The notes: a model not told the origin generated them from the letters alone. Shown: positions 4,019 to 20,017, counted from the stretch's first letter. The stretch: 64,000 bases of DNA from Cyanobium sp. Aljojuca 7A6 (GCF_024346455.1 NZ_JAGQCY010000014.1:1-64000), one strand, 5' to 3'. Translations and numbers: made by a program.

Positions 4019-4966
4019 TCAACTCCGCAGACCAAGCAGGCGGAGCAACCGATCCCGCTTGCGCAGTGGGCCGCTTGTCTCTAGGGCCTGGCGCCCACGC
4101 AGCTGCTGAAATTCCTCCGCCCGGCAGACCTGGGCCTCCAGGCCGTCCAGAAACTGACGGAACTGCTCCAAGGCCTGCCAGCTCTGCTGCAACTCGCCGG
4201 GCGCATTCGCCACCTGCGCGGCATACGGCGACCCGGAAGCGGGATGCATCAGTGGAGCTGGAGACGGAATCACACCCAGTCCGGCCCCCGGCAGGCGGAC
4301 CACACCAGCCCCCGGCAGCAGGATTTTCCCGCCCGCGTCAAAGCAGACCTGCACCTCCTGCCCGGCCCAGGCAGGAGGCAGCTGATGCAGCTCGATCTCA
4401 AAGCCACACTGCTCCGGGTAGCCCTGATCAGCCATCCCTGGTCGGTAGCGATCGCAGCGAAGCTTCACCGGTGGCTGACCCGCCGCGTGCAGCCACACCT
4501 CAATCGGCTGGCCAGACCTCTGGCCGCGACGGTAGGCCCAGCCGTGAAGGGCGTCGCCTTCAGGACTGAGCCCATCGAAATGGCCCACAGCGCCGCGCAC
4601 CTCTGGGGCGAGCACCTGCTGCAGACGCTCCACCGTGCTGGCTGGCTGCGGCTGATAGGCCAGTTCCACGCTGGTGCCTCCATCGACAGAGAGCGCCAGC
4701 ACACGCGGGGCCTCCGCAAAGGCCACCGCAGGAAGATCGCCGCAGATCTCCAACTGGAACCCAAAGGCGCCCTGGATCCCAAGCCTCTGGCAGGCATCCT
4801 GGCGTGGCTGATTGATCAGGGCCTGCGCCAGCAGATTGGGCCCCACCAACAAGCGCACCTCAGAAAGAGGTGCTGCTGAACAGTGGACCCAGCCAGCGAT
4901 CAGGCCCGGTGTGATCGTATCGATGCCGCCGGCATGCTTGGGCTTGGAACGTCGACGGCGAAACAA
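4019..4966 (-). CDS. Tandem GW-module protein, last gene of the capsule operon
   Basis: A 315-residue protein of unknown function with two copies of one sequence module: residues about 16-73 (GLIAGWVH ... AFGFQLEI) and 129-193 (ALHGWAYR ... QCGFEIEL). Each has a 'GW[AV]' strand, an aliphatic strand and a terminal 'GF-x-[IL]-E' strand, suggesting a small beta-sandwich. The same module ends the sulfotransferase at 19016-20017. The C-terminal 70 residues are helical. It begins 16 bp after the dioxygenase gene and is the last gene of the leftward operon. A glycan- or protein-binding adaptor role is inference from the shared module. Confidence 0.65.
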   Translation of the reverse strand: MFRRRRSKPKHAGGIDTITPGLIAGWVHCSAAPLSEVRLLVGPNLLAQALINQPRQDACQRLGIQGAFGFQLEICGDLPAVAFAEAPRVLALSVDGGTSVELAYQPQPASTVERLQQVLAPEVRGAVGHFDGLSPEGDALHGWAYRRGQRSGQPIEVWLHAAGQPPVKLRCDRYRPGMADQGYPEQCGFEIELHQLPPAWAGQEVQVCFDAGGKILLPGAGVVRLPGAGLGVIPSPAPLMHPASGSPYAAQVANAPGELQQSWQALEQFRQFLDGLEAQVCRAEEFQQLRGRQALETSGPLRKRDRLLRLLGLRS

Positions 4967-4982
4967 CGGAACTCCTCGTCTA

Positions 4983-5861
4983 TCAGTGTGGAACCATTAT
5001 CCCTTGGACGCGGCCGCCTCTGAGCTTGCCTGTGGCCACATCCTGAGGCTGCCGAAAACAGGCACCTCCAGCAGAGAATTCAAAACTATGCATCGGCGTG
5101 GTGTATAAACAATCCGCAAAGAAGAAATGGTTCACCTGGCTCCAGCGCGTGCGCTCACGGTTGTTCACCGGCAGCCCCCCATGCAGCAGATTGGCGTGCC
5201 AAATGAGCACCTCACCTTGGCGCGGCAGGTAAGTTTCGGGCTGCAAACCATGCTGCTGCAGCTCCTGTCGCCAGATCGGCTCGAACAGGCGCTGGGGGTG
5301 GGGTTCAGCCGCCACGTCCTCCGGACTCAATCCCTCCGTTTCGGCACTGCGGTAGGGCAGACGATGGCTGCCTGGATAATACACCAGTGGACCCGCATCG
5401 GCCTCAATATCTTCCAGAGCCATCCACACGCCACACATGAAACCATGGGGATAACTATGAAAATGCACGGCATCACTGTGGAAGTGCTGCTGGCTGCCCA
5501 CCGGGAAGTTTAACGTTTGAAAGCAGAACGGGTCGCGTCCGTAGAGGTGGCGGAGCAGCTCCAACACCACCGCATGCAGCGCCAGCTCCCGAACAGCTTC
5601 GCACTTTTTCCAACTGTCTTGCAGACGCAGATCAACGGTCGTACCCTTTCTCCAACCATCCAGATCAAACTGGGGCTCCAGGGAAGCCCGAATCGCGCTG
5701 GCACGCTCGTGGAAGCTGTCATCCGCCAGATCCAGCAGGCAAAAGCCCTGCTCCGCCATCTGCAGAGCCTGCTGCCCATAGGGACCAAACGCCCCGGCGG
5801 CCACGCGGCCGGCCACATCAGGCCGATCAATCCAAGGCCTGCTGGCCAGATCCAGCCCCAT
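4983..5861 (-). CDS. PhyH-type Fe(II)/2-oxoglutarate dioxygenase
   Basis: A 292-residue protein with the phytanoyl-CoA dioxygenase pattern: metal-binding H128-x-D130 (QHFHSDAVHFHS) and distal H227 in WHANLLHGG, followed by an Arg-rich segment (NNRERTRW) expected to bind 2-oxoglutarate; YYPGSHRLP is also typical. The enzyme should hydroxylate an aliphatic or sugar substrate in the cytoplasm. Its ATG overlaps the stop of the upstream glycosyltransferase by one base (TGATG), so it is translationally coupled. In a capsule operon carrying an acyl-building module, the substrate could be the lipid or a sugar residue; the sequence does not decide. Confidence 0.8.
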   Translation of the reverse strand: MGLDLASRPWIDRPDVAGRVAAGAFGPYGQQALQMAEQGFCLLDLADDSFHERASAIRASLEPQFDLDGWRKGTTVDLRLQDSWKKCEAVRELALHAVVLELLRHLYGRDPFCFQTLNFPVGSQQHFHSDAVHFHSYPHGFMCGVWMALEDIEADAGPLVYYPGSHRLPYRSAETEGLSPEDVAAEPHPQRLFEPIWRQELQQHGLQPETYLPRQGEVLIWHANLLHGGLPVNNRERTRWSQVNHFFFADCLYTTPMHSFEFSAGGACFRQPQDVATGKLRGGRVQGIMVPH

Positions 5862-7924
5862 CAGATCACCTCCTGCGCTGGCTGGAGCCGCCGCAACTGG
5901 GGGGCCGGACCATCCAAACGCAAACCAAAGTTCTCCTCACGAAGGCTGAGTTGGGGATGGTAATGGGGGTCTGCGTTGAGAATCACGCCCCAACGCTGCT
6001 GCATGACGTCCCTCTCCTTCTGCCACTGATGGAGAGCCTCTGGTGTGATCGGTGCACCCCGACTCTTCGACTCGTGGTGCACCAGGACAGCCTCGGCACA
6101 GTAAAGGTTTCGGTGGCCGGCGGTCATCGCCCGAAGACAGAGATCGAGATCGTTGTACGACACATGCAGCTGTTCGGCATCCAACCCCCCCAGCTGCTGA
6201 AACAACGCTCGACGGATCATCAGAACCGCACCGGTCACCGCACTGAGATTGTGACTGAGCTGGGCACGCAGCTGATGGCCAGGCTCCGAAGCCGATTGGT
6301 ATTTGTGGCTATGGCCGGCAACACCACCAATGCCCAGAATCACGCCGGCATGCTGCAACGTTCCATCGGGATAGAGCAGCTGGGCCCCCACACAGCCGAT
6401 CTCCCCCCGCAGGGCCTGGCCCGCCATCATCTCCAGCCAACCAGACGCCTGGGCCTCGATGTCATTGTTCAGCAGCAGCAACAACTCCCCTCGTGCCACC
6501 TCGGCGGCCGCATTGTTCAGTGCCGAATAGTTGAAGGGCCCAGGGCAGCGCAACACCCTCGCCCGGCCGCTGACCTCCAGCTCCGCCAGGAAGGCCAGTG
6601 TGGCTGGCTGCAGGCTGCCGTTATCCACCACCAGAAGCTCAAGCTCCAGGCGGCTTCCAGCCGTGGCCTGAAGGGAGTGGAGACAGGGCTCCAACAACTC
6701 CAGCCGGTCCCGGGTGGGCACAATCACACTCACGCTCACAGGGCGATCCGGCAGAGCCCACAACAGCCGATGGCCCCCACCCTCGCGAGCCTCCACCTCA
6801 ACCTGGTATCCCAAACGCTGCAGGTGCCGCTGCACCAGCGCCGCCGTGGCCGTGCCCCCACGGCAGACAGGGCGATGGTGGCTCAGCACCTCGGGCCAAT
6901 GCCAGATGTGCTCGGCCTGGCAGACCTGGGACAGCTCCAGCAGCAGGCCATAGGGGGTGGGTTCTTCACCGGCTGCAGCCAGCCGCTGCAGAGCCACCTC
7001 CAACCGGTCGGAACGCACCCAGAAACAGCGGCTGTAATGGGGGTCAGCCAGCAGCAGATCAGGATTCCAGGCTGGTTTCCACTGGGCACTGTGACGCACC
7101 CCCTGGGCTGAGAGGAGATCGCTGTCGGCATAGATCAGTTCAGCTCCAGGCGCCGCACACAGCAGCTGGCCAAGGCGTTCATTCGCATGGGGAGCCAGGC
7201 GATCTCCCTCATCCAGAACCACCCACCAGTCGGCTCGGCCGCTGCACTCCGGAGACCACAGCCGCAGACGAAGCTCAGCACCGGTCAGAGCCGTAGGCGG
7301 AGGCGTCAGTTCCAAGGCTCGCCGCTGGCAAGCCTCCACACGCTCCATCCAGGCGCTGTAGCCATGGGCATGCAAGGAGCGACGGGCGAGCAAGGCGTTG
7401 TAGTCGAACCAGAGACGCGCATGGCTCCGGTGGCGATTACTGCCGATCACCCGCCCATAGAGGTCGTGGCGGGTGCGGAGATGACGGGCCACCCGAAAGC
7501 GGGCCCTCGGCGAAAACAACGGCTGATAGCGCACCTGCACCCGCTCGAGATCCCCCTCAAGGTGCAAGAAACGAAGTTGCAAAGATTGGCTGCCACGACT
7601 GGAAATTCGCACCAAACGACGACGCTCCACACCATTGGTGGCCAAAAGAGGCTGCACAAAAGGCTCCTGCCCACGGCGAAGGTCGATCCGGTACCTGTGT
7701 TGGGGCCCCTGCAACAACAAACCAAGCCGGTACCAACCTGGCGATAAGGCGGTGTCACTGAGCCAGACAGGGGAATGCGACGATTCCGACCAGCGGCCAT
7801 GCAACGGCTTCCAACGACTGAACACCAAGGCAAGTGTCTTGCGGCGCCACTGGCGTCCGGTGCTGAACGGAAGCCGGTGGAAGATCCGCCTACTCACGGT
7901 GGCTGTCTTGAACACCAAGCACAA
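5861..7924 (-). CDS. Two-module GT2-type glycosyltransferase
   Basis: A 687-residue protein. The C-terminal half (from about residue 396) is a complete GT-A family 2 domain: SVIVPTRDR start, LLVVDNGS, LLLLNNDIE (DXD-like) and the acceptor-side SYNDLDLCLR. The preceding ~200 residues resemble a second, degenerate GT2 module (LDEGDRLAPHA, LIYADSDLLS, WKPAWNPDLLL) that lacks its N-terminal nucleotide-binding strand. This double arrangement is common in O-antigen and capsule glycosyltransferases. The start overlaps the upstream kpsE by 35 bp, so translation may begin slightly later. Donor and acceptor sugars cannot be read from the sequence. Confidence 0.85.
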   Translation of the reverse strand: MCLVFKTATVSRRIFHRLPFSTGRQWRRKTLALVFSRWKPLHGRWSESSHSPVWLSDTALSPGWYRLGLLLQGPQHRYRIDLRRGQEPFVQPLLATNGVERRRLVRISSRGSQSLQLRFLHLEGDLERVQVRYQPLFSPRARFRVARHLRTRHDLYGRVIGSNRHRSHARLWFDYNALLARRSLHAHGYSAWMERVEACQRRALELTPPPTALTGAELRLRLWSPECSGRADWWVVLDEGDRLAPHANERLGQLLCAAPGAELIYADSDLLSAQGVRHSAQWKPAWNPDLLLADPHYSRCFWVRSDRLEVALQRLAAAGEEPTPYGLLLELSQVCQAEHIWHWPEVLSHHRPVCRGGTATAALVQRHLQRLGYQVEVEAREGGGHRLLWALPDRPVSVSVIVPTRDRLELLEPCLHSLQATAGSRLELELLVVDNGSLQPATLAFLAELEVSGRARVLRCPGPFNYSALNNAAAEVARGELLLLLNNDIEAQASGWLEMMAGQALRGEIGCVGAQLLYPDGTLQHAGVILGIGGVAGHSHKYQSASEPGHQLRAQLSHNLSAVTGAVLMIRRALFQQLGGLDAEQLHVSYNDLDLCLRAMTAGHRNLYCAEAVLVHHESKSRGAPITPEALHQWQKERDVMQQRWGVILNADPHYHPQLSLREENFGLRLDGPAPQLRRLQPAQEVI

Positions 7925-9089
7925 ACTTACCCAGGCTCAAGCTGACCAGGGCGAGGGCAGCAACCGTAAAGAAACCACGCAGCCGCCAATTGAACGCAGG
8001 AGAATCTGGCAAGAGCGGTGCCGACAAAATGGCCATGAATTTCTGTTGACGCTGGGTGTCCACACGGGCCTTTTCAGCAGAAACAAGTGCAGTTTTATAC
8101 AAGTCCGCGGCAAAGTCGACTGCCGATTGGTACTGGAGCATGTCGGCCGCTTTTCGATTCAGATTTCGACCCGATCCCTGACGTGACACCAAGCCCTTAC
8201 GCTCAGAATCAATCAATCGTTGCAATTCTGCAATCTGATCCTTGACAGCCAATAGATCCGGCTCGTCATCACTCTTGAATTGCTGTTGCAAGGTAAAGCG
8301 ATGCAACTTCAGTTCAGCCAGCTTCATCTCAAGCCCTCCTACAGAGTTCGCCACAATCCCAGCCTCCACTTTGGGATCAATCACTTCCGTAGCGCTCTGA
8401 AAGGTAAGTAGTCGCTGCTTCGCTATGTTCAATTGCGATTGGGAACTGGCCAACTCCTTGCGGGCAAACTGCAGTTGCGCTTCACCGATCCTCTGGTTCA
8501 GGCGATTGACAAACTGCTCACTTTGCTTCAACAAGAACTGGTTGAGTTCGTAAGCCGCTTTGGGAGATAAGCCAACGGTCGTAAGAGTGATCACACCAGA
8601 GATCTCATCAAGCTGCACCTGCACCTGCTTCTGGAAGAACTTGAGCCGCTCTTGCCGATTGGCACCACTGGGCAAGCCCGCCATCAGATCAGGCGGGAGC
8701 TGGGCATAGGCAGCGTCGAAATCATAGGATTTGAGTAGATCCTCCAGAACCTGTGGAGACGTGAGATAGGTACGTAGGTAACGCGCATCCTCCAGGGAAT
8801 TCTGGCTGGAACCCGCCAGCAAACCTGCAAGCCCACTGGTGGCACCGCCGCCCAGCGAAATATCTTCGGCTGAACGGCGTACGACATAGCTCGACTCCAC
8901 TGCATATCGGTCACGCGCAATCGCAAAGAAGTAAATGCCCGCTAAAACCACCGGTACAAGTACCAACTGGAACAACGAACGCCGCTTTAACCAGCGCAGA
9001 GGATTAGGCCGCCGTAGCTGAGACCTCCAATCAGCTTGCGCCTGCTGGAAAACCTGAATCGAACTCTGCTTGGCTTGTTCAAGCTGCAT
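7890..9089 (-). CDS. kpsE: KpsE-like capsule export inner-membrane protein
   Basis: About 399 residues (ATG 9089; an in-frame start at 9122 is also possible). The layout is that of the polysaccharide co-polymerase/KpsE family: a basic N-terminal tail, one membrane helix near residues 40-56 (QLVLVPVVLAGIYFFAIA), a large periplasmic part that is mainly coiled coil (residues ~190-300), and a second helix close to the C-terminus (FFTVAALALVSLSLGKF). It should bridge the KpsMT transporter and the outer-membrane exporter. The gene overlaps kpsT by about 10 bp and lies between kpsT and a glycosyltransferase, the normal company for this family. Confidence 0.85.
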   Translation of the reverse strand: MQLEQAKQSSIQVFQQAQADWRSQLRRPNPLRWLKRRSLFQLVLVPVVLAGIYFFAIARDRYAVESSYVVRRSAEDISLGGGATSGLAGLLAGSSQNSLEDARYLRTYLTSPQVLEDLLKSYDFDAAYAQLPPDLMAGLPSGANRQERLKFFQKQVQVQLDEISGVITLTTVGLSPKAAYELNQFLLKQSEQFVNRLNQRIGEAQLQFARKELASSQSQLNIAKQRLLTFQSATEVIDPKVEAGIVANSVGGLEMKLAELKLHRFTLQQQFKSDDEPDLLAVKDQIAELQRLIDSERKGLVSRQGSGRNLNRKAADMLQYQSAVDFAADLYKTALVSAEKARVDTQRQQKFMAILSAPLLPDSPAFNWRLRGFFTVAALALVSLSLGKFVLGVQDSHRE

Positions 9090-9777
9090 GGGGAACTCCA
9101 GACTCTGGCGCCAATTCAGCAAGCAGGGTTTTGGTGTGGATATCTATGGCCTCTTTGACATTCGCATACTCAGTAATTCCTCCAGACTCCAGCAAGAAGG
9201 CCCGGTTACAATGGATCTGCAGGCCCCACAAATTATGGTCAACCATCAAGAAGTTGGAGGTTTTCTTTCGATCCAGCAAAAGGCGTTTGCTCTTTTCTCT
9301 GAACTTTTGGTCGCCAGCCGCCGTGATCTCATCGATGAGATAATAATCGAAGGGGAAGGCCATCGAAAGCCCAAAACTAAGGCGCGACTTCATGCCGGAG
9401 GAATAGGTTTTGAAGGGTCGATCAAAGTATATACCAAGCTCCGCAAAGTCTTCGACGAATTTGATGCGGTCGTCAATCTCACGCTTCTCTCCATAAATCA
9501 TGCTCACGAACGTCACGTTCTCCCTGCCTGTTAGGCTTCCCTGGAAACCACCCTCGATACCCACGGGCCAAGAAATCGTGCCAGTACAGTCAATGGTTCC
9601 TCGATCAGGGATATCTATTCCTCCAAGCAGCTGAAGCAGGGTCGATTTCCCAGCCCCGTTGGCACCGATGACCGCGATCGACTCGTCGCCAGCAATCTCG
9701 AAGGTCAAATTGTCCAACACACGCTTGCGCTTGCCCTTGTAGAGGTAACTCTTGGTAAGCGAGCTAACACGTATCAT
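9079..9777 (-). CDS. kpsT: Capsular polysaccharide ABC transporter ATPase KpsT
   Basis: A 232-residue ATPase of the KpsT/Wzt subfamily without a C-terminal carbohydrate-binding domain. Walker A is GANGAGKS (residues 38-45), the signature is SSGMK (126-130) and Walker B is YYLIDE (145-150), followed by the H-loop in MVDHN. Its length equals that of classical KpsT. With KpsM, 4 bp upstream, it forms the inner-membrane exporter for a lipid-linked polysaccharide completed in the cytoplasm. It is in the middle of the leftward operon. Confidence 0.93.
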   Translation of the reverse strand: MIRVSSLTKSYLYKGKRKRVLDNLTFEIAGDESIAVIGANGAGKSTLLQLLGGIDIPDRGTIDCTGTISWPVGIEGGFQGSLTGRENVTFVSMIYGEKREIDDRIKFVEDFAELGIYFDRPFKTYSSGMKSRLSFGLSMAFPFDYYLIDEITAAGDQKFREKSKRLLLDRKKTSNFLMVDHNLWGLQIHCNRAFLLESGGITEYANVKEAIDIHTKTLLAELAPESGVPHAA

Positions 9778-9781
9778 TGGC

Positions 9782-10588
9782 CTAGCGGCGGATCAATACC
9801 TTCTCATTGTTAGTGTAGCACCAAAGGGCAAGACTCAGGTAAACCAGCGCGAATCCCGCCGGGTAGCCAAGGGTCACCTGGGAAGGAATCTGATAATCAA
9901 CGCTCAAGGCCCTACGGGCCAGCTCAATGCACTGGAGAAGAGGGTTCCAAACAAGAAAGTCTCTGGCAAATTGAGGAATTTGGATCGGCGCATAGATAAC
10001 ACCTGAAGCAAAGTACAAAGCTCGATTCAGCCAAGAAAGCACCTGCTTCAGGTTAGGAAAATAATGGGAGCCCACCAAAGAAAGGAGGGAACTGGCAATG
10101 GCAAGTAACGTCATCAGCACAAAGGCCATGACCAAAAGGGGCAAATCTCGGAGCACCAAGCTGTAGAGATAAGCCCAGACAAGTCCAAAAACAACAATCG
10201 CTGCAGAGGCATAAAGCCCCAACTCTTCAATCGCCTTGGCTAGAATTGTGTCTATAGGCTTGACGCGACGGTAAAAAAACAGGGCCTTGTTGGCCTCCAT
10301 CGTCGTCAGCCCATGCGAAGCCACCCTGGAATATAGGTTGAAAAGGATAACCCCGCAGGCAAGGAATAGAATGATATTGAGATTATTCACCATCGTTGCT
10401 GGGCTCGCAATCATGCGTAGCACTGTCCAAACAGCAATCTGACCGATCGGCTCCATCAGCACGGCAAGAAATCCACCCTGCACATCGCTGACGCGGCGCC
10501 TAAGCTCGCGATAAACGAGAGCATTCACCACACGCCACTGGATCTCAAACCCACTCAGTCGACGCAGCCGAGAATCTGAACCCTCCAT
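9782..10588 (-). CDS. kpsM: Capsular polysaccharide ABC-2 permease KpsM
   Basis: A 268-residue ABC-2 type membrane protein with about six helices, the usual size of KpsM. The N-terminus (VYRELRRRVSD, followed by GFLAVLMEPIGQIAVW) is the typical amphipathic start of polysaccharide exporters, and the C-terminus ends with a YTNNEKVLIRR tail. It pairs with the KpsT ATPase encoded immediately downstream (4-bp gap) and begins 8 bp after the outer-membrane exporter gene. Its presence means export is ABC-dependent, not Wzx/Wzy-dependent. Confidence 0.92.
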   Translation of the reverse strand: MEGSDSRLRRLSGFEIQWRVVNALVYRELRRRVSDVQGGFLAVLMEPIGQIAVWTVLRMIASPATMVNNLNIILFLACGVILFNLYSRVASHGLTTMEANKALFFYRRVKPIDTILAKAIEELGLYASAAIVVFGLVWAYLYSLVLRDLPLLVMAFVLMTLLAIASSLLSLVGSHYFPNLKQVLSWLNRALYFASGVIYAPIQIPQFARDFLVWNPLLQCIELARRALSVDYQIPSQVTLGYPAGFALVYLSLALWCYTNNEKVLIRR

Positions 10589-10596
10589 GAAATCCC

Positions 10597-11712
10597 CTAG
10601 TTCACACCCAGCAACCGCAACAAAGAAGCGGCATTGATCACAGGACCCACGGGCTCGAGCGTGGCTCGCACCGCGTCATTTACAGCGGCCCTTCGGTTGC
10701 GGTTCACAACCACCACATCGCCCTCGCGCAGGGCAGGATTGTTGTCACTACCCAAGGGGTCCGAAGGACTGAAACGCACCTGCTTCTGGGTAACAGTCCC
10801 ATTCGATTCGAGGCGAAAGAGTTGGAGGTTACCCACACTGGCCCGCTCTTTGACAAAACCACCAGCCGCCAGCACAGCGTTGCTGAGGTGACTGTTGGCC
10901 CGCACGCGAATGCTGCCAGGACGAACGACTTCACCCACGACGTTCACACCAATCGTATCGGGAGCAAAGGTCGATGAACCAATCTTGATCAGATCTTCGT
11001 AACTGAACTCATCGGCCGCCGTCACCATGACGACATCACCATCAAACAAGATTGGATTCTCAATCTGTTGACCATCTCGCAGCGCCTCCCAGAAGTTGAC
11101 CCGCAGTTCTCGTTGCGGGCCAGGCCCCAGTTGGCGCTTGAGCACAACAGCTCGGAGATCTCCCCGTGCTGTGATGCCACCAGCCTTCTGAATCGCTTCG
11201 ACCAGCGTGGGCCAACCACTGGACTGAATGGTGGTGGGCTGGGAAGAACCAGCGGTAGCGCCCGCACTTTCCAGCTGAAAACTGCCAGAACGATCCAGAC
11301 TGTACAAACCTGGCCGCTGAACTTCACCGGTGACGGTGATGCGCATGGGTCGGGCATACACCAAATCCAGGGACACGCTGGGGCGGCGAAGGTAGCGCCC
11401 GTAGGCCTCACCGATGCGCTGTCGGGCCTGATCCAAGGTGAGTCCGGCCACAGGGACGCTGCCGATGCGAGGGAAACTCGCCGTGCCATCAGCGATCACC
11501 TCGGCAATCCCCTCATAGCCCGGAACCTTGAACACTGACATGCGGATGCGATCGCCAGGGCCAAGGCGATAGCGCAAATCGCGACTGAAACCGCTTGGAG
11601 CCTTTCCCGAAGGACCCATCGGTTGGGACGCTGCTCCCTGACCTAGGCCGAGCCCAGCACAAACACCAAGGATCATCAAAGTATGTGTTGCAAACGGGAG
11701 TTTATGTTTCAT
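10597..11712 (-). CDS. Outer-membrane polysaccharide export protein (Wza/KpsD family)
   Basis: A 371-residue exported protein with an N-terminal signal peptide (MKHKLPFATHTLMILGVCAG, cleavage near residue 29). A Poly_export domain follows (YRLGPGDRIRMSVFKVPGYEG, residues ~48-130), then two SLBB-type repeats (VTGEVQRPGLY near 145 and VVGEVVRPGSI near 255). This is the periplasmic/outer-membrane channel component of capsule and exopolysaccharide export. There is no lipobox Cys, as in KpsD rather than Wza. Its start overlaps the upstream glycosyltransferase by about 11 bp and kpsM follows after 8 bp. Confidence 0.9.
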   Translation of the reverse strand: MKHKLPFATHTLMILGVCAGLGLGQGAASQPMGPSGKAPSGFSRDLRYRLGPGDRIRMSVFKVPGYEGIAEVIADGTASFPRIGSVPVAGLTLDQARQRIGEAYGRYLRRPSVSLDLVYARPMRITVTGEVQRPGLYSLDRSGSFQLESAGATAGSSQPTTIQSSGWPTLVEAIQKAGGITARGDLRAVVLKRQLGPGPQRELRVNFWEALRDGQQIENPILFDGDVVMVTAADEFSYEDLIKIGSSTFAPDTIGVNVVGEVVRPGSIRVRANSHLSNAVLAAGGFVKERASVGNLQLFRLESNGTVTQKQVRFSPSDPLGSDNNPALREGDVVVVNRNRRAAVNDAVRATLEPVGPVINAASLLRLLGVN

Positions 11713-12685
11713 CGCTTAGGCCTAAATGAAGATAGTGTGAAGCGTGACAGCGGGCAGAATCAGCGAGTTGTTCACGCCATTGGGGCTGGCTCGACAGGCG
11801 ATGAATAGCATCAAGCCACTCGTCGTATTGATCACCCAGCAAGAGCCCATCATCACCATGGTGTACCATGTTAGCATAGGGAGCCCGATTGCTGTATAGC
11901 CCAACGGCACCTAAGCGGACGGCATCAAAGAACTTCACCGCTGCGCGCGCACCATTGAACGTGTTGTCAAGGAGTGGGCATAGGAGCAGATCAAGATGCT
12001 GGCCGGCAGTGACTTCGCGATAGCGCTCCCAGGGAACGGGATGCTGCACCTGAACCCTCGGTAAGGGGCTGTATAACTTGCGAACCTTGTCATCGCCGTA
12101 CAGCTCCACAAGCGTATGCGAATAGCGAGCCTGCACGTCCGCGATGAGCGGATACAACCAAAGCAATTCCTGCCGATGGGACGCCGTGCCGTGGTACCCG
12201 ATAGTGAAGCTGCGGATCTGTTCCACCACCCTGGCCTGAGGGCGCAACGGGATCAGTTCAGGATTCAGGCTGGCATAGCGCTGGGCCAGGGATGGGGTGC
12301 TCACCCAAAGCTCCTGGCACCAATCAAGAATGGCGTGACGGCGATCCCAGGCCAGGCGACGCAATTTGGCCGCATACTTGCGCGGCAACACTTCAAATCC
12401 CGATCGGTCCATGAGGTCGTCATCCATCCAGTAGATGCAACGCAGGCCCTGCCGCCTGGCCTGCCTGAGCACCGCCCGCCAGCACCATCCGCTGGGCCAA
12501 TACCGCACCAGCACGACAACCCGTGCCTTCATCAGCTGAGATCCCATGTCCGAAGGCGGACGACGGCGGGTATCCACCAAGAGTGCACGCCAATGCCGCT
12601 CCCGAAAAGCCGCATGCAAAAAATAGTCAAGGCTGGATTCCGCACCCTGATGGAGCACCAGTGCCGTCGTCACGCGCTCGCCCAC
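11702..12685 (-). CDS. Glycosyltransferase, GT-B fold (GT4-like)
   Basis: A 327-residue protein whose C-terminal half looks like a GT-B Rossmann domain: SFTIGYHGTASHRQ (nucleotide-loop region), LVELYGDDKVR, then LDLLLCPLLDNTFNGARAAVKFFDAVRLGA, the usual 'pattern of sites needing the same sugar donor' region with KFFD and a GLYSN strand. The N-terminal half is short and contains IYWMDDDLMD. The spacing suits a GT1/GT4-like enzyme that adds a sugar to the growing capsule or its lipid acceptor. It overlaps the ketoacyl synthase gene by 16 bp, so carbohydrate and acyl genes are translationally linked. Confidence 0.75.
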   Translation of the reverse strand: MGERVTTALVLHQGAESSLDYFLHAAFRERHWRALLVDTRRRPPSDMGSQLMKARVVVLVRYWPSGWCWRAVLRQARRQGLRCIYWMDDDLMDRSGFEVLPRKYAAKLRRLAWDRRHAILDWCQELWVSTPSLAQRYASLNPELIPLRPQARVVEQIRSFTIGYHGTASHRQELLWLYPLIADVQARYSHTLVELYGDDKVRKLYSPLPRVQVQHPVPWERYREVTAGQHLDLLLCPLLDNTFNGARAAVKFFDAVRLGAVGLYSNRAPYANMVHHGDDGLLLGDQYDEWLDAIHRLSSQPQWREQLADSARCHASHYLHLGLSDET

Positions 12686-13914
12686 ACCAGGCTCACGTTG
12701 TGACCGCCAAAACCGAAGGCGTTCTTGAGAACCAGATGACGACGCTGCGGATCGAGCGGCTCGTTGCGATGCCTGGGGATCCGGAGCGCCAACTCAGGGT
12801 CGGGGGGATCGGCGTTCAGACTGCGTGGCACCACAGCCTTCTGCAGTGCCTTGAGCGTCAGGATGGACTCCACGGCTCCAGCGGCTCCCAGGAGATGGCC
12901 AAGGCCTGCTTTGGGAGCGGTGACCCAGACCTGATCCGTTGCCGTACCAAACACCCTATGAAGGGCGCGAGCCTCCGCCAGATCGCCCAGTGAGGTGCCG
13001 GTGGCATGGGCACTGATCATCGAAATCTCCTGCGGCTCCACCTCTGCAGTTCGCAGGGCCTTCTGCATGGCCCCAGCCGACTGCAGTCCATCGGGCTGAG
13101 GCATGGCCAGATGATGGGCATCACTGGTCATCCCAGAGCCAAGGAGCACCCCTTCAATCGTCGCCCGCCGCGCCAGGGCATCGCTGAGGCGCTCGAGGAC
13201 GAGGACCCCGGCCCCTTCCCCAACAACAAAGCCGTCCCGATCGGCCGCAAAGGGCCGGCAGGCGCCCGACGGATCGTCGTGACGACAGGAGAGCGCACGC
13301 ATTTCTGCAAATCCGCGCAAGGTGACGAGATGGATCGCCGCCTCCGTGCCGCCTACAACAACCACATCCGCCTGATCAGTTGCCAGCAGCATCTGTCCCC
13401 AGACAATCGCCTCAGCACCACTGGCACAGGCCGATACCGGGGCATGGGCACCGCCATGGGCACCCAACTCAATGGACACCTGAGCCGCGGCGGCATTGGG
13501 CATGGCCATGGCCACAGCCAGAGGATGAATGCGCCTGGCGCCGGCGGCATTGCGCTCATATTGTTGAATCAACGTGGATTGCCCACCAATGCCTGTGCCG
13601 ATCACGACGGCCAGGCGTTCGCCAGGGACCCCAAGATTCCCCAGACCGCTCGCAGCCCAGGCCTGGCGGGCCGCCAGCAACGCCAGCTGACTGCAACGAT
13701 CCAGGCGATTAACAAGGAAATCCCCAAGCTGTTCCCCCATATCACAAGAAACAGGTGCAACGATTCGGGCGGACAGCCCTGAGGCCCAAGGTTCAACAAG
13801 TTCGCTGCTAGCACTCAAACCCTGGAGATAAGACTCAGAAGCTGTATCAGGATTGTTTCCCAGCGGCGTAATACATCCCACACCGCTGACGGCTACGGCC
13901 GTAAAAGAGCTCAT
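12670..13914 (-). CDS. Beta-ketoacyl synthase (FabF/RkpA-type condensing enzyme)
   Basis: A 414-residue thiolase-fold enzyme of KAS II size with the complete Cys-His-His set: C163 in VSACASGAEAI, H303 in SAHATGTSLGD and H340 in AGLGHLLGAAGAVES. It should extend an acyl chain on the acyl carrier protein encoded directly upstream; the ATG overlaps the carrier gene's stop by 4 bp. A second-copy fabF in a capsule operon, paired with its own carrier, points to a dedicated acyl product. The closest functional precedent I know is the RkpA fatty-acid-synthase-like protein of the Sinorhizobium rkp-1 K-antigen region. Confidence 0.88.
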   Translation of the reverse strand: MSSFTAVAVSGVGCITPLGNNPDTASESYLQGLSASSELVEPWASGLSARIVAPVSCDMGEQLGDFLVNRLDRCSQLALLAARQAWAASGLGNLGVPGERLAVVIGTGIGGQSTLIQQYERNAAGARRIHPLAVAMAMPNAAAAQVSIELGAHGGAHAPVSACASGAEAIVWGQMLLATDQADVVVVGGTEAAIHLVTLRGFAEMRALSCRHDDPSGACRPFAADRDGFVVGEGAGVLVLERLSDALARRATIEGVLLGSGMTSDAHHLAMPQPDGLQSAGAMQKALRTAEVEPQEISMISAHATGTSLGDLAEARALHRVFGTATDQVWVTAPKAGLGHLLGAAGAVESILTLKALQKAVVPRSLNADPPDPELALRIPRHRNEPLDPQRRHLVLKNAFGFGGHNVSLVWASA

Positions 13915-14198
13915 TCCACCTGTTCCTTTACAAAATCAACAATATCTCTAACGGTTGAAAGCTCCAGCAACTGATCGTCCTTAATCTCAATACCGAAACG
14001 ATCTTCGGCATCCATGACGAGCTCATATGTCCCGAGAGAATCAATCCCAATGTCACCCACAAGTGAAGAATCAAGTTGAATGTCATCAATGTCGTGAGGC
14101 ACAACTCTTCGCAGGATGATGACAATCTCTTCGACGATTTCTTCGTCACTCATCTCGCGAAGAAGGGCCTGATCAATTTTTTTGACGGTGGAGGACAT
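13911..14198 (-). CDS. Dedicated acyl carrier protein
   Basis: A 95-residue protein with the four-helix carrier pattern and the phosphopantetheine-attachment Ser at position 54 (IGIDSLGTYEL). It is acidic and longer at the N-terminus than housekeeping AcpP (DSLD motif; here DSLG), so it is probably pathway-specific. It is the first gene of the leftward capsule operon and overlaps the ketoacyl synthase gene. It likely presents the acyl thioester to that enzyme and to the alpha-oxoamine synthase encoded on the other side of the shared promoter region. Confidence 0.88.
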   Translation of the reverse strand: MSSTVKKIDQALLREMSDEEIVEEIVIILRRVVPHDIDDIQLDSSLVGDIGIDSLGTYELVMDAEDRFGIEIKDDQLLELSTVRDIVDFVKEQVE

Positions 14199-14225
14199 TC
14201 AGTGCTACTTTAGCCTAGTCACCGT

Positions 14226-14234
14226 ATCATACCA
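14226..14234 (-). promoter_or_regulatory. Candidate extended -10 promoter for the leftward operon
   Basis: On the minus strand the sequence reads TGGTATGAT (an extended -10, TGnTATnAT), 27 bases before the carrier-protein ATG. A weak -35-like TAGCAA lies 17 bases further upstream. Together with the rightward candidate it occupies the only non-coding stretch (14199-14286) between two ten- and five-gene blocks. Confidence 0.35.
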
Positions 14235-14237
14235 CAC

Positions 14238-14264
14238 TTGACAAACTTTGCTATAGGATATAGT
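14238..14264 (+). promoter_or_regulatory. Candidate sigma-70 promoter for the oxoamine synthase gene
   Basis: TTGACA at 14238-14243 and TATAGT at 14259-14264, with a 15-bp spacer that is shorter than ideal. A strong Shine-Dalgarno (AGAGGAG, 14278-14284) precedes the ATG at 14287. The stretch is AT-rich compared with its surroundings. Confidence 0.4.
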
Positions 14265-14286
14265 ACTGCAGCATCAAAGAGGAGCC

Positions 14287-15486
14287 ATGCTCTCGCCAGG
14301 GGTTCCCCAACTCGCCAGCCAGAGGCTTGTTGATCGTCTGTTGCGGCGCAATGGCCTAAAAGCATCGGATCTGCCGTTCTTTTCGAGAGCAGATCAAGTC
14401 AACGCGCCGGGCCAGAGGCAGTTCTCATCTTATGACTATCTGGATCTCAAGACACATCCCCTGATCCTTGATGCCGCGTCAGAAGCCCTAAAGCAGTACG
14501 GATTGTCTACCTCGGCAAGTCGCCTCATGGCCGGTGAGCTGCCCCATCACGCAGGCCTCGAAACCCAGTTGGCGCAGGTTTACGGGCAAGAGTCGGCCTT
14601 GGTGTTCGTCAGTGGCCATGCAACGAACGTCAGCACAATCGCAGCCTTAGTAGAGCCTGGCGATTTAGTGATCGTAGACCAACTTTCTCACAACAGCATC
14701 CAGATGGGCGTCAGGCTCTCCGGTGCCCGTCGCCTCGTCTTTCCGCACAACGACCCGGTAGGTCTTGAACGCCTGCTCGTCAAGCACCGCCATCAGTATC
14801 GCCGCTGCCTGATCGTCACGGAAGGTCATTTCAGTATGGATGGCGACAGTCCCGACCTCAACAGCCTGCTCACGCTGCGAGATGAGCATCGAGCCTGGCT
14901 GATGGTGGACGAAGCGCATGGGCTCGGGGTGCTGGGTGCTGGTGGTCTTGGCAGTCATCAGCAGCAGGGAATTGACCCCAGCAAGGTGGACATCTGGATG
15001 GGAACGCTCAGCAAAAGCCTCGCCTCTACTGGCGGCTTCATCGCTGCCAAGCAGGACGTGATCCAACACCTCAGACTCCACGCCAGCGGCTTCAGTTTCA
15101 GTGTGGGACTGAATGCACCCTGCTGTGCCGCGGCGACTGCCGCTTTGACTGTCATGCGCAACGAGCCAGAACGGGTAGCCTCTCTTCAGGCCAACGGGAG
15201 GTACCTGATCCATACCGCGCAGGAGGCAGGCCTCGATGTGGGCCAGAGTCTCGGTATGGGCATTGTTCCCATCATGTTGAACGATCTTCGTCACACGTTC
15301 CTTGCCGCCAACCATCTGCTGGCCCAGGGCTGGGGGGTTTACCCGATCGCTCCTCCCACCGTTCCCAGCAATCGCTGCCGACTACGTCTGTTCGTACGCT
15401 CCGATCACACCAAAGAAAGCATCACCAACCTGGTGAATGACCTCAGCAGTGCCATTCACCATACAAAAACCAATGCGGGTCGTTAA
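14287..15486 (+). CDS. Alpha-oxoamine synthase (BioF/RkpG/serine palmitoyltransferase fold)
   Basis: A 399-residue fold-type I PLP enzyme. The internal-aldimine Lys is K243 (MGTLSKSLAS), the PLP pair is D208/H211 (VDEAHG) and the ring-stacking His is H135 (DQLSHNS). These enzymes condense an acyl thioester with an amino acid (Ala, Ser, Gly) and release CO2, giving an aminoketone. No biotin genes are nearby, so 7-keto-8-aminopelargonate synthase is unlikely. The setting (acyl carrier, KAS, SDR, KpsC) matches RkpG of rhizobial K-antigen loci, and also overlaps the bacterial sphingolipid gene set (Spt). Strong ribosome site; the GNAT-like gene overlaps its 3' end by 14 bp. Confidence 0.87.
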   Translation: MLSPGVPQLASQRLVDRLLRRNGLKASDLPFFSRADQVNAPGQRQFSSYDYLDLKTHPLILDAASEALKQYGLSTSASRLMAGELPHHAGLETQLAQVYGQESALVFVSGHATNVSTIAALVEPGDLVIVDQLSHNSIQMGVRLSGARRLVFPHNDPVGLERLLVKHRHQYRRCLIVTEGHFSMDGDSPDLNSLLTLRDEHRAWLMVDEAHGLGVLGAGGLGSHQQQGIDPSKVDIWMGTLSKSLASTGGFIAAKQDVIQHLRLHASGFSFSVGLNAPCCAAATAALTVMRNEPERVASLQANGRYLIHTAQEAGLDVGQSLGMGIVPIMLNDLRHTFLAANHLLAQGWGVYPIAPPTVPSNRCRLRLFVRSDHTKESITNLVNDLSSAIHHTKTNAGR

Positions 15487-16594
15487 GGTCCGTACTACTC
15501 TGGATCATCACCGGTTCAGGGCAGGGCTTGGCATCGGGCTTGAACCCGAACATTATCCCGATTGGTTTGACCGTTTCGATGAAGTCTTGCGAAGCTCAAG
15601 CTGGTTTCATCCCTATCTGAAGCGCACACCCCACCGGCGCTGGATTCTCAGGAGCCAAGGCAAAACCATTGGCAGGATCATGGCCATGCATCCTAAAGAT
15701 GGTCCGTCCCGTTTCGGCTTCTATAATTGCATTGACAGCCCAGAGGCCGCTCACGCGCTCACCCATGCCGCCGAAACATGGACACGCTGCGGAGGCTCTG
15801 AACTTCTGATCGGTCCCTTTAATCCATCCATCCATGACGAATGTGGTCTACTAGAATACAGGAGTTGCTCGAATCTGTACGGCTATCCGCAGACTCCTCA
15901 ACACTACATCCGCAACCTTGAGGCCTGCGGTTTTAACTGTGCCAAGCGATTGCTGACGTTCCTTCAAGCCGATGAACGCAATGCCTTGCGACTCCAACTG
16001 CGGATGGGCCCGCTACTCAAAGTCATGCCTCAGCAAGGGCTTCAACTAGAAGTAGCCAAGTGGTCAACTCTTGATCGCAATTGTGAATGGGTTGAAACCC
16101 TCATCAACCAATGCTGGAGCAACAATTGGGGTTTCGAACCGATCAGCAGAGCTGAGGCCAGAAACTTGGTCCTCAAGGTTCTTACGATGCTGCCCAAGGG
16201 AGTACTTTCCTTCATCTCTCTTCACGGTCGTCCCGTTGCCATTTGCCTAGGCATCCCCAACGCCAAGGAAATCGCCTCCAACCTCAACCCCAAGCTTGGG
16301 ATCCTCAACTTGCCCATGTTGTTACTGAGATTACGGCGTTGTCAGTGCGAACATGGGCGGATCGCTCTTTTAGGCGTCATCCCTGAGCTTCAGGGATCCC
16401 AAGTTTCCTTGATAGCGTCCATCGCCATGCTCAGTCACTTGATCAATACGGGATTGGCCTTCGGCAGCTCTTCGGCCAGCATGGGCTGGATTCTCGAAGA
16501 CAACCAAGCGATGATTCGCTTCCTGAAGCTCTACGGAGGTGAGCAGGTGATGTCTCATTTGATCATGGCCAAAAGCCTCGATAGGCCCGGCTAG
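15473..16594 (+). CDS. GNAT-fold acyltransferase-like protein
   Basis: About 373 residues from ATG 15473, which overlaps the oxoamine synthase gene by 14 bp. The sequence has the layout of large GNAT-like proteins found beside oxoamine synthases: an N-terminal half with GKTIGRIMA, IGPFNPSIHDECGLL and GYPQTPQHYIRNLEACGF, and a C-terminal half (residues ~260-370) with a substrate-free loop and GSSSASMGWILEDNQAMIRFLKLYGG, typical of the GNAT C-terminus. A likely role is N-acylation of the aminoketone or amino alcohol, as for the GNAT-type bacterial ceramide synthase described in Caulobacter. Function is inferred from context; no acetyl-CoA loop is unambiguous. Confidence 0.7.
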   Translation: MRVVKVRTTLDHHRFRAGLGIGLEPEHYPDWFDRFDEVLRSSSWFHPYLKRTPHRRWILRSQGKTIGRIMAMHPKDGPSRFGFYNCIDSPEAAHALTHAAETWTRCGGSELLIGPFNPSIHDECGLLEYRSCSNLYGYPQTPQHYIRNLEACGFNCAKRLLTFLQADERNALRLQLRMGPLLKVMPQQGLQLEVAKWSTLDRNCEWVETLINQCWSNNWGFEPISRAEARNLVLKVLTMLPKGVLSFISLHGRPVAICLGIPNAKEIASNLNPKLGILNLPMLLLRLRRCQCEHGRIALLGVIPELQGSQVSLIASIAMLSHLINTGLAFGSSSASMGWILEDNQAMIRFLKLYGGEQVMSHLIMAKSLDRPG

Positions 16595-17357
16595 AAGCAA
16601 GGATCCAGCGCAAGGCAGGCTTGGGTAAACGTTGCCCGATCCAAAGCAGCAGAGCCATCCGACGGGGAAACACAATGCGTTTGCGCCCAGCCCGCAAACC
16701 CCGCAGGATTCGTTGTGCAGCTTGTTCAGCCGTGCATTCCAATGGCCGAGGGCCTGGATAGTCCGTGGCCATGGCCGTGGCCACGAAACCTGGAAACACC
16801 TGGCTGAAAATGACCTCCGCACCTGGTTCAGAGCGGCAGGCATAGAAGTCGTCAAGGGCTTCCACCAGGGTGTGCTGAGCCGCCTTGGCCACGCAGTAAC
16901 CTGGTGCCTCTCCGAGCGGCAGAAAGGCATTCAGAGAACTCACGACCACGCAATGAAGATGCGGTCGCTGTTTCACGGGCAGGCTCAGTCCAGCCTGGAG
17001 CAATGAGAGCGTACACGTGAGGTTGTGATCAATCTGTTCCCGAAGTTGCTCCCAATCGGGGCCCAGGTCGGTTGGCGTGTCCTCCAAGGCCACCACACCG
17101 GCATTGGCGATCAGAAGATGCACGCCTCCGCTGCTCGCAAAAGCCTCGACGGTATCCGCCACAGTCTCACGATGCCGCAAGTCAAGGGCCCTCCAGTAGA
17201 CCTCCGCTCCTTTCCCAACGCAACGCTCGGCGACCTGGCGCAAATCGTCCCCATGCCGAGCCAACAGCATCAGAGCAACGCCAGGCTCCGCCAAGGCCTC
17301 AGCCAACGCAGCACCGATGCCTCGGCTTGCTCCCGAAATCACCACCCTCTGGGCCAT
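16563..17357 (-). CDS. Short-chain dehydrogenase (RkpH / 3-ketosphinganine-reductase-like)
   Basis: About 264 residues from ATG 17357 (MAQRVVISGASRGIGAAL). The classical SDR elements are present: cofactor loop SGASRGIG (residues 8-15), ARHGDD after beta-2 suggesting NADP(H), NAG in LLIANAGV, catalytic Ser in VVSSLNA and YxxxK as YCVAKAA. The C-terminal extension (RRMALLLWIGQRLPKPALRWILA) is long and hydrophobic, as in membrane-associated ketosphinganine reductases. It is convergent with the GNAT-like gene (32-bp overlap) and divergent from the KpsC-type gene (39-bp gap). Reduction of the oxoamine synthase product is the natural prediction. Confidence 0.8.
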   Translation of the reverse strand: MAQRVVISGASRGIGAALAEALAEPGVALMLLARHGDDLRQVAERCVGKGAEVYWRALDLRHRETVADTVEAFASSGGVHLLIANAGVVALEDTPTDLGPDWEQLREQIDHNLTCTLSLLQAGLSLPVKQRPHLHCVVVSSLNAFLPLGEAPGYCVAKAAQHTLVEALDDFYACRSEPGAEVIFSQVFPGFVATAMATDYPGPRPLECTAEQAAQRILRGLRAGRKRIVFPRRMALLLWIGQRLPKPALRWILASSRAYRGFWP

Positions 17358-17396
17358 CAACCTGAAGCCCCCTTCCGCACCAACGCCTAACTTTGC

Positions 17397-19019
17397 ATGA
17401 CCTGGACCACCCTGATGGGTAATTCCCTGGCTCCCCTGTTCGGACTTGAGCAGCCTACGTGGTTCCACAGGCTGGGGGGTTGGCAGCCTTTGAGCCGTTG
17501 CAACTGGTGCCAGCCACCGCAGGGTCTCTCTCCACTCCTTCCAAGCCAGGAGAAACGTTTGGAGGGGCTACTCAGTTACTGGCGGCACTGGGGAATCAGT
17601 GGCTGGAATCCGCGCCACTTAGCCACTCCACCGGAGCAGCCCTTCGTACTGCTCGCCAACCGGTGCCGAGGGCAGAATCTGCACATGCTCGCCCATAAAC
17701 TGTATCCCTACGAGCGCGTTCTTGATCTCAGACGCCAACGGCAGCACCCGGCACCACTTCTGGCGACAGCGTCCGCGATGGTCACCAAGGACTGGCGTTG
17801 GGGCCTGGAAGCGCTGATCTGGAACCTTCCGGTGCATGGGCTTCCGCACCTGCCATCCAGCCGCCGATGGCAACTCGCACTGCTGCACCGATGGCTGCTG
17901 GAGGAGAGCACGTACTGGGATCCAACCCGGCGCCAAGCCTGTGATCCGGAACAGATCCTCGCGTTGGTCGGCTTGCAACTGCAGCAACGACGTCGCTTTC
18001 CAGAACGCATTGAAGCGTTCGGGATCCATCCGTTCCACCACCGAACCTTGCGCTACTACCTGGCAGGAAGCCAGCTGCGCTTTCGCCATCGGCACGCCAA
18101 GCCCAGTCGGAAAGCTCAGGCCTCAGCCGTGCTTGGCAGGGCGCTCAACAAGCAGGCGCTACAGCCTGAGAAAAGGCCACTGATTCAACTGGAGGATGGC
18201 TTTTTGCGTTCCAGTGGACGGGGAGCCCACCTCCAGCTGCCACTCTCACTGGCGGTTGATGCGGTTGGGATTTACTTCGATGCCACCTGTCCCAGTGCCC
18301 TAGAAAGATTGCTTCAAGAGCACTGCTTCAACGTCGAGGAATGCTTGAGGGCCAAACAACTACGGGCAGAGATCTTATCCGCTTCCCTCAGTAAATATAA
18401 CCTGAAAGGACAGAGCTGGAACCGTCCGTACCACGACAAGTCTGTGGTGCTGGTAGTGGGGCAAGTGGAACAAGATGCCTCCATCCGCTACGGGGCTCCT
18501 GATATTCGCACCAACCTGGCCCTTGCCATAGCTGCCCGCAGATTAGAGCCCGAAGCTCACTTGATTTATAAACCTCATCCATTCGTCGCCAATGGACGAA
18601 GGCCCGCTGGTGACGGTGAAGACACCATCCCCAATTACGTCGATGTCATACTGCCACATGTTGCGATTAATACGCTGCTGAACCAAGTGGATCGCGTCCA
18701 TGTTCTTACCTCCGGAACAGGCTTTGAGGCCCTGCTCAGACAGGTCCCCGTAGTCTGCCATGGCCTGCCATTTTATGCTGGCTGGGGACTCACAACGGAT
18801 CGGCTTCACTGCAAGCGTCGACAACGCAAGCTTACACTGGATGAACTGGTCTTTGGGGCCCTAATGGCTTATCCCACCTATGTGAACCAGCACTGCGGCT
18901 GGTTCATCACTCCTGAACAAGCTGTTGAGCAATTGATAGCGTTGCAGGCCAATCCACCCTCACGCCTCGCTCTCAACCTGCAGCACTTGGCCGCATTCTT
19001 GCCGATCATCCATTCATGA
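17397..19019 (+). CDS. KpsC-family capsule transferase with shortened first module
   Basis: About 540 residues. The C-terminal ~300 carry the KpsC/LipA hallmarks: LEDGFLRSSGRG (about residue 265), VVGQVEQDASIRYG, LIYKPHP, and LTSGTGFEALLRQVPVVCHGLPFYAGWG. Full KpsC has two such modules that build an alternating beta-Kdo linker on a lipid. Here the N-terminal ~230 residues retain only the tail of a first module (ESTYWDPTRRQACDPEQIL matches the end-of-module 'Y-x-DP ... CEPE' pattern), so one active site is expected. It initiates the lipid linker for ABC-exported capsule. RkpJ of rhizobia is the parallel. The sulfotransferase gene overlaps by 4 bp (ATGA). Confidence 0.83.
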   Translation: MTWTTLMGNSLAPLFGLEQPTWFHRLGGWQPLSRCNWCQPPQGLSPLLPSQEKRLEGLLSYWRHWGISGWNPRHLATPPEQPFVLLANRCRGQNLHMLAHKLYPYERVLDLRRQRQHPAPLLATASAMVTKDWRWGLEALIWNLPVHGLPHLPSSRRWQLALLHRWLLEESTYWDPTRRQACDPEQILALVGLQLQQRRRFPERIEAFGIHPFHHRTLRYYLAGSQLRFRHRHAKPSRKAQASAVLGRALNKQALQPEKRPLIQLEDGFLRSSGRGAHLQLPLSLAVDAVGIYFDATCPSALERLLQEHCFNVEECLRAKQLRAEILSASLSKYNLKGQSWNRPYHDKSVVLVVGQVEQDASIRYGAPDIRTNLALAIAARRLEPEAHLIYKPHPFVANGRRPAGDGEDTIPNYVDVILPHVAINTLLNQVDRVHVLTSGTGFEALLRQVPVVCHGLPFYAGWGLTTDRLHCKRRQRKLTLDELVFGALMAYPTYVNQHCGWFITPEQAVEQLIALQANPPSRLALNLQHLAAFLPIIHS

Positions 19020-20017
19020 TATTCAAGCAACTTCGCCGAAGAACTACGGCGGCCCGAATGCTGGGCGGCGACACGGAGAGTCATCAGAACTCTGGATTCT
19101 GGCTTCTCAATGCAACTGCCAAAGATCATTACTCAGCAGGCACCGTTGTCGTGGCTGGACTGGGGCGCTCGGGCACCTCCATGCTGGCTGCTGTGCTCAA
19201 AACGGCAGGTATTTGCATGGGCGAGCAAACAGCCATTGGCACGCATGAAGATCAGCAGCTCGCAACACTCCTGCAGCCACGAAAACGCAGGGAATTGCGA
19301 CGGCTGATTGAGCAACGCAATCAGAATTACACTCTGTGGGGCTTCAAGCTTCCATCCCGTCAGATTCTTGAGCCATCGCTGTTTAGCCTACTCAGACGAC
19401 CCTACCTTGTGGTGATCTTCCGGGACATTCTTGCCATCGCAGGCCGGCGCCAAATCTCCAAGGGTGAAAGCTTGCAGTGCCAACTCACGCAGAGCCTTAG
19501 CGAATACCGTCGCTTGGTGAGGTTCCTTGATCGAATCGATCACCCCTGCCTACTAATCTCCTACGAGAAAGCCCTTCTAGATCCCGATTTGCTTGTTGAT
19601 CAATTGGATCACTTCCTGAGGCTCAATCTCGATAACATCAGCAAGGTGGCCTGCAGTGCCAGTGTCCAAGTATCGCCCGATATCTATCGCCGCGAAGTTC
19701 GACAGCTACAGGGCTGGCAGGGCCGGCTTGAAGAAATTCAAAAAGATAAAATCAAGGGTTGGGCTTATGTTGGGCAAGCCGACGCTCCAGCAAAGGTTGA
19801 AATCTGGATCAATGGTCTTCGTCAGTACTTTTGCATTGCCAATCGGCCGCGGCCAGACGTCCAGAGCGAGCATCAGCTCAAGACATCAGCGTGTGGATTC
19901 TGCATCGCACTAAACGGTGACTCCCAACTGTTAAAACAGGGCGATTATGTGTCAGCCCGCTTGGCCGAGACAGAACAACAACTCCGTAATTCACCGCTGA
20001 CCTACACAGATCCTTAA
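19016..20017 (+). CDS. Sulfotransferase with C-terminal GW module
   Basis: A 333-residue protein. The N-terminal ~210 residues are a PAPS-dependent sulfotransferase: 5'-phosphosulfate loop GLGRSGTS (residues 48-55), LWGFKLP, LVVIFRDILAIA with the conserved R-D (3'-phosphate side) and ISYEKALLDP. Residues ~237-299 are a separate module (IKGWAYVG ... VEIWINGL ... ACGFCIAL) also found twice in the protein at 4019-4966. It would place sulfate on a capsule sugar or the lipid. Its ATG overlaps the KpsC-type stop (ATGA), and it is the last gene before the GC rise that marks the island boundary. Confidence 0.83.
   Translation: MIFKQLRRRTTAARMLGGDTESHQNSGFWLLNATAKDHYSAGTVVVAGLGRSGTSMLAAVLKTAGICMGEQTAIGTHEDQQLATLLQPRKRRELRRLIEQRNQNYTLWGFKLPSRQILEPSLFSLLRRPYLVVIFRDILAIAGRRQISKGESLQCQLTQSLSEYRRLVRFLDRIDHPCLLISYEKALLDPDLLVDQLDHFLRLNLDNISKVACSASVQVSPDIYRREVRQLQGWQGRLEEIQKDKIKGWAYVGQADAPAKVEIWINGLRQYFCIANRPRPDVQSEHQLKTSACGFCIALNGDSQLLKQGDYVSARLAETEQQLRNSPLTYTDP

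Follow-up and report, generated by a model that had tools for sequence, protein, structure and literature searches.

A putative rkp-1/wcb-type capsule lipid module within an ABC-exported capsule island of Cyanobium

Gene content and conservation of the island

We analysed a 64,000-nucleotide stretch of DNA (the window) from Cyanobium sp. Aljojuca 7A6 (GCF_024346455.1, NZ_JAGQCY010000014.1:1-64000), which forms the first part of a 78,575-base contig (C6) of a 3.13 Mb cyanobacterial genome. Positions 4019-20017 hold an island of fifteen genes (Table 1), in which a capsule exporter of the ATP-binding cassette (ABC) type lies together with enzymes that probably build a lipid for the capsule. The minus-strand operon comprises ten genes, encoding an acyl carrier protein (ACP), a beta-ketoacyl-ACP synthase (KAS), a glycosyltransferase, Wza, KpsM, KpsT, KpsE, a GT2 glycosyltransferase, a PhyH-type dioxygenase and a protein of unknown function. 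An alpha-oxoamine synthase (AOS) gene on the plus strand begins 88 bases from the ACP gene and is followed directly by a GNAT-like gene; a short-chain dehydrogenase/reductase (SDR) gene is convergent to the latter, and genes for a KpsC-type and a sulfotransferase-like protein form the right end of the block. Because the KAS gene overlaps its neighbours on both sides, the ACP gene (by 4 bases) and the following gene for capsule export, the acyl-chain genes belong to the capsule operon.

The capsule and lipid genes that an earlier note on this DNA had named are all open frames within the stretch it gave, and family matches together with conserved order indicate that they are real. The island is kept gene for gene, in the same order, in a second genome of the genus (G148; 80-94%) and in Cyanobium sp. 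Cruz CV13-4-11 (L090; 73-92%), and in both it adjoins the same RlmL and amylase genes, so that this gene block is not a chance reading. Of 201 sampled genomes of the family, none but the window genome and G148 yielded the GNAT-like protein, and this, together with the conservation of the block, implies that the island is rare and maintained as a unit. Since the GC content of its genes, from 44% (ACP) to 66%, lies below the 70% of the right flank (20085-64000), its composition fits acquisition.

Table 1 Genes of the capsule and lipid island, with positions in the window and supporting evidence.
Feature	Position	Strand	Evidence
Protein of unknown function, last in minus-strand capsule operon	4019..4966	-	Open frame; 80% identical in G148
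PhyH-type iron/2-oxoglutarate dioxygenase	4983..5861	-	PF05721 E=4e-21; 85% in G148
GT2 glycosyltransferase	5861..7924	-	PF00535 E=1.5e-16
KpsE/BexC-type export protein	7890..9122	-	TIGR01010 E=5e-62
KpsT-type ATPase	9079..9777	-	Teichoic acid, galactan and Vi exporter ATPase models
KpsM-type permease	9782..10588	-	NF050053 E=1.8e-35; PF01061
Wza/KpsD-type polysaccharide export protein	10597..11712	-	PF02563, PF10531 (Poly_export/SLBB)
Putative glycosyltransferase	11702..12685	-	PF13524 weak, E=8e-4
Second, dedicated KAS	12670..13914	-	FabF model 399 bits, cut-off 494
ACP, attachment serine S54	13911..14198	-	PF00550 E=4e-14
RkpG-type AOS, pyridoxal phosphate lysine K243	14287..15486	+	48% identical to S. 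meliloti RkpG; tree
YghO/aca (bacterial ceramide N-acyltransferase) family protein, 385 aa	15437..16594	+	hhalign vs YghO family
Classical SDR reductase, hydrophobic C-terminus	16563..17468	-	PF00106 E=4e-26
KpsC-type beta-Kdo transferase	17397..19019	+	PF05159 (Capsule_synth) E=6e-36
Sulfotransferase-like protein (weak)	19016..20017	+	PF13469 (Sulfotransfer_3) E=1.3e-4, below cut-off; 80% in G148

An RkpG-type oxoamine synthase and a classical reductase

All active-site residues of the AOS (H135, E179, D208, H211 and K243) are intact, and in a search of plasmid records it matched RkpG of Sinorhizobium meliloti pSymB at 48% identity. A tree of 63 sequences, including eleven BioF-type enzymes, Escherichia coli Kbl, two serine palmitoyltransferases (SPTs) and eight cyanobacterial SPT-like proteins, placed the window AOS and RkpG in one clade (100/100), with the BioF-type, Kbl, SPT and cyanobacterial SPT-like sequences outside it. 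The three Cyanobium-type enzymes form a long, early branch, and a single clade of Cyanobium and Acidisoma enzymes was neither rejected nor established by the approximately unbiased (AU) test (p=0.54).

The best NCBIfam model for the AOS is BioF, at 350 bits, as would be expected if the enzyme were a second BioF, or a 2-amino-3-ketobutyrate ligase (Kbl), of ordinary metabolism. This score is, however, lower than the model's cut-off of 426 and similar to that of S. meliloti RkpG (360 bits), the tree puts the AOS outside both groups, and the genome has a separate BioF-like AOS gene. We therefore regard such a role as very improbable, and the tree and model scores led us to reject both identities. 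A clustering of the AOS with BioF or Kbl, set beforehand as a check on the reading of the locus, was not seen.

The reductase joined SDRs of RkpG-type loci in a quick tree (SH-aLRT 98), apart from eight SDRs of its own genome and outside the rhizobial RkpH subgroup; the choice of the RkpG-locus SDRs by similarity favours this grouping. Its start codon is uncertain, 17357 being the likelier.

The earlier note had left open whether the module was rkp-1-like or sphingoid-base-like. SPT models score the AOS far under their cut-offs, and from its place outside the SPT branch we reject an SPT-type pathway; a CerR/epi-type reductase is rejected because the island enzyme is a classical SDR by both PF00106 and the tree. 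A strict sphingoid pathway is thus unsupported, and it is the rkp-1-like option that agrees with the grouping of the AOS with RkpG and with the capsule genes commonly present at RkpG-type loci (see below).

A dedicated KAS and ACP and a YghO-family protein

A check of residues showed intact active sites in both the KAS (C163/H303/H340) and the ACP (S54). A housekeeping FabF, scoring 632 bits on the FabF model, is encoded elsewhere in the genome, and the island KAS is an additional copy.

The GNAT-like protein (start codon uncertain, 15473 likelier than 15437) matches no Pfam or NCBIfam model with its own sequence, and its assignment therefore comes via distant relatives. A comparison of the Cyanobium profile with a YghO-family profile in hhalign gave 99.95% (E=1e-37, 357 columns), and eight of ten YghO-family members matched Acetyltransf_1, the GNAT model, so that on profile evidence we firmly assign the protein to the YghO/aca family. 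A scan of viral contigs returned one short partial match. The E. coli relative is YghO, located with SPT, an ACP, an epimerase-type reductase and a fatty acyl-AMP ligase (FAAL); yghO corresponds to CC_1154 of Caulobacter, which carries out the N-acylation in dihydroceramide synthesis (PMC9386255). The earlier suggestion of a possibly N-acylated lipid thus has a basis in the family to which the protein belongs.

Alternatively, the lipid enzymes could supply the outer membrane with a free-standing lipid, ceramide-like or otherwise an amino lipid, and share the island with the capsule genes without feeding the capsule. SPT-type clusters of E. coli and Caulobacter do give sphingolipids, not capsule anchors (PMC9386255), and a different pair of AOS and YghO-type protein is present in other cyanobacteria, mostly without the capsule gene set. 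Against this, the island AOS is RkpG-type rather than SPT-type, and the genes for KAS and ACP lie inside the operon for capsule export, which makes a free-standing lipid unlikely in our view.

As a separate observation, YghO/aca-family proteins are encoded in about one in ten of the sampled cyanobacteria (L042-L079; distant relatives of the GNAT-like protein in 37 other cyanobacteria among the 386 searched). In 18 of these 37 the gene directly adjoins an AOS of the SPT-like, separate deep branch, and the best solved relative of one such AOS (L043) is a serine palmitoyltransferase. No dedicated ACP was seen adjoining these pairs, which, judged from sequence, are candidates for a ceramide-like pathway.

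RkpG-type loci in other bacteria

A scan of named genomes gave at least 548 matches, of which the 80 best form the set of AOS loci considered here, and the counts therefore describe the nearest relatives and not the whole family. The matches are led by Cyanobium CV13-4-11 (78%), followed mostly by proteobacteria (43-54%). An RkpA-type synthase is encoded at 76 of the 79 loci other than Cyanobium, the S. meliloti order being RkpA-RkpG-RkpH-RkpI-RkpJ, and is absent from all three Cyanobium-type islands. No free-standing KAS or ACP was detected in those 79 loci, and a YghO-type protein was found in one of them, Hansschlegelia (L109), in a row with RkpA and RkpG. Capsule genes were sought within 10 kb in the 56 long-flank loci, those with at least 18 kb of sequence: KpsE-, KpsM-, KpsC- or RkpJ-type genes were present in 39, and capsule-type genes of any kind in 47. 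A lack of co-occurrence with capsule export genes, which would have spoken against the earlier interpretation, was thus not seen.

The trio of AOS, SDR and YghO-type protein, with no RkpA seen nearby, was found in four Acetobacteraceae genomes. On a plasmid of Acidisoma sp. PAMC 29798 the YghO-type, SDR and AOS genes stand in a row and are followed by KpsC/RkpJ-type, RkpI-type, KpsE, KpsM and KpsT genes; the three further genomes are represented by L279-L281, with KpsC, RkpJ and RkpI types in L281.

Within the cyanobacteria, a profile search of 386 genomes gave a clean split between 19 genomes at or above 506 bits and remaining matches at or below 371 bits. In the 18 others with an AOS of RkpG type (L216-L233), the enzyme stands alone or is part of a larger fused synthase; FAAL or polyketide synthase (PKS) genes mostly accompany it, and no capsule gene set was found at these loci; the capsule link is therefore a feature of the Cyanobium type, not of the phylum. 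These enzymes possibly make aminoketone or amino-alcohol metabolites.

Capsule export, KpsC and Kdo

Both the capsule exporter and the KpsC-type transferase named in the earlier note held up, whereas its sulfotransferase is only a weak call. The KpsC-type protein matches the KpsC structure 6mgd (E=3e-62) and has a single recognisable module for transfer of 3-deoxy-D-manno-oct-2-ulosonic acid (Kdo), at about residues 250-522, with a different N-terminal part; in E. coli, KpsC contains two modules of this kind, and KpsS is the enzyme that begins the Kdo linker on the lipid (PMC10148158). The genome encodes two Capsule_synth proteins, one in the island and one on contig C15, and both match KpsC structures. 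On contig C15 (L286 12188-19916), kdsB, kdsC and kdsA lie together with a KpsF/KdsD-type isomerase gene, near glycosyltransferase genes and the second KpsC-type gene, so that Kdo is likely available.

For known ABC-exported capsules the lipid base is (lyso)phosphatidylglycerol-Kdo (PMC10148158) or, in the Vi antigen, an acylated N-acetylhexosamine (PMC12220298). The Cyanobium capsule might have an ordinary phosphatidylglycerol-Kdo anchor, with the lipid genes making a secreted or intracellular metabolite; the KpsC-type protein and Kdo pathway would suit such an anchor, and the RkpG-type AOS of other cyanobacteria adjoins FAAL/PKS genes, as in metabolite pathways. However, in the tree those FAAL/PKS-associated enzymes branch separately, and the island contains neither FAAL nor PKS, so we consider this combination improbable.

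Proposed pathway

We favour, with moderate confidence, the reading of the locus as a reduced rkp-1/wcb-type capsule lipid module, set in an ABC-exported capsule island of a few Cyanobium-type cyanobacteria. Its product, as predicted from the genes, would be an amino-alcohol lipid dedicated to the capsule and probably N-acylated. Gene identities, intact active sites, the RkpG placement of the AOS, the link between RkpG-type loci and capsule genes, and the Kdo pathway can be read from sequence; we infer which substrates are used, in what order the steps run, that the lipid is N-acylated and attached to the capsule, and that the capsule is sulfated. The dedicated KAS would lengthen an acyl chain on the dedicated ACP, partly standing in for the RkpA synthase, and the RkpG-type AOS would couple this chain to an amino acid in a decarboxylating step; the SDR would reduce the resulting aminoketone to an amino alcohol. 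The YghO/aca-type protein may then place a second acyl chain on the amine to give a ceramide-like lipid. KpsC would attach Kdo, the glycosyltransferases would make the polymer, and KpsMTE and Wza would export it on this lipid. The locus would in this way work like rkp-1, without one of its defining parts, RkpA.

More tentatively, at somewhat less than even confidence, we propose that a cyanobacterial capsule is carried on a ceramide-like (N-acylated amino-alcohol) lipid, whose synthesis would involve KAS and ACP as a type II pair, the RkpG-type AOS and an N-acyltransferase of the ceramide family. We know of no capsule with an N-acylated amino-alcohol lipid anchor.

Several observations weigh against a dedicated capsule lipid of this kind. 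No KpsE-, KpsM-, KpsC- or RkpJ-type gene lies within 10 kb at 17 of the 56 long-flank RkpG-type loci, and free-standing KAS and ACP were not found near the AOS in the four Acetobacteraceae loci, so that the role of these two proteins is argued from the Cyanobium islands alone. The YghO-type protein is very divergent (branch 3.45), with an uncertain place in the tree, and therefore its family membership is firm while its activity is not, and may differ; its predicted structure is unreliable (pLDDT 44, three usable sequences). Finally, no KpsS stands out in the genome, in searches that did not use KpsS itself as a query.

Comparison with known systems

Like S. meliloti rkp-1 and Burkholderia wcb, the island combines an RkpG-type AOS, an SDR, a Capsule_synth protein and an ABC capsule exporter. 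It differs from them in having neither RkpA nor RkpI, in the free-standing KAS and ACP found instead and in the extra YghO-type protein, and its SDR resembles rhizobial RkpH less than it does the SDRs from other RkpG-type loci. The Acetobacteraceae loci share the RkpG-type AOS, SDR and YghO-type protein and the lack of a nearby RkpA, and Acidisoma also the KpsC/RkpJ, KpsE, KpsM and KpsT types, but they have no free-standing KAS or ACP detected nearby, and Acidisoma has an FA_hydroxylase and an RkpI-type protein and an AOS only 42% identical. With the sphingolipid cluster of E. coli and Caulobacter (Spt, AcpR, AasR, epi/CerR, aca/YghO) the island has in common an AOS-fold enzyme, an ACP and a YghO-family protein; its AOS is, however, not SPT-type, its reductase not CerR-type, an acyl-ACP synthetase is absent and a capsule exporter present. 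KpsM, KpsT, KpsE, KpsD/Wza and KpsC types, together with the Kdo pathway in the genome, recall the E. coli group 2 capsule (KpsMTED, KpsC, KpsS), from which the island differs in its KpsC with one recognisable module, the presence of lipid-building genes and, as far as searches without KpsS as a query show, the lack of a clear KpsS.

To our knowledge, no one has yet identified the lipid that the rkp/wcb enzymes make, one obstacle being the giant, iterative synthase RkpA. The Cyanobium island seems to replace it by small separate proteins that could be individually expressed and assayed, and suggests an N-acylated product. It would also mean a surprising capsule lipid in some cyanobacteria and a bridge between capsule and sphingolipid research.

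Other genes of the island and its surroundings

A homologue of the putative glycosyltransferase encoded next to the KAS lies within an rkp-like locus of Shinella (L081; E=5e-18). Another PhyH-type dioxygenase gene adjoins an RkpG-type AOS on a Pseudomonas plasmid (L086 9168-10211); such enzymes could possibly hydroxylate the lipid or the polymer. Searches of Pfam and NCBIfam gave no family for the last protein of the operon, which weakly resembles the sulfotransferase-like protein (22% over 118 residues, E=0.004) in the C-terminal part of the latter, perhaps reflecting a common small domain. Outside the island, window positions 3007-3483 encode a protein with an F5/8 type C (galactose-binding-like) domain (E=3e-8), and positions 1029-2756 a long coiled-coil protein; in G148 a related protein (39% identity) is encoded on the corresponding side of the island.

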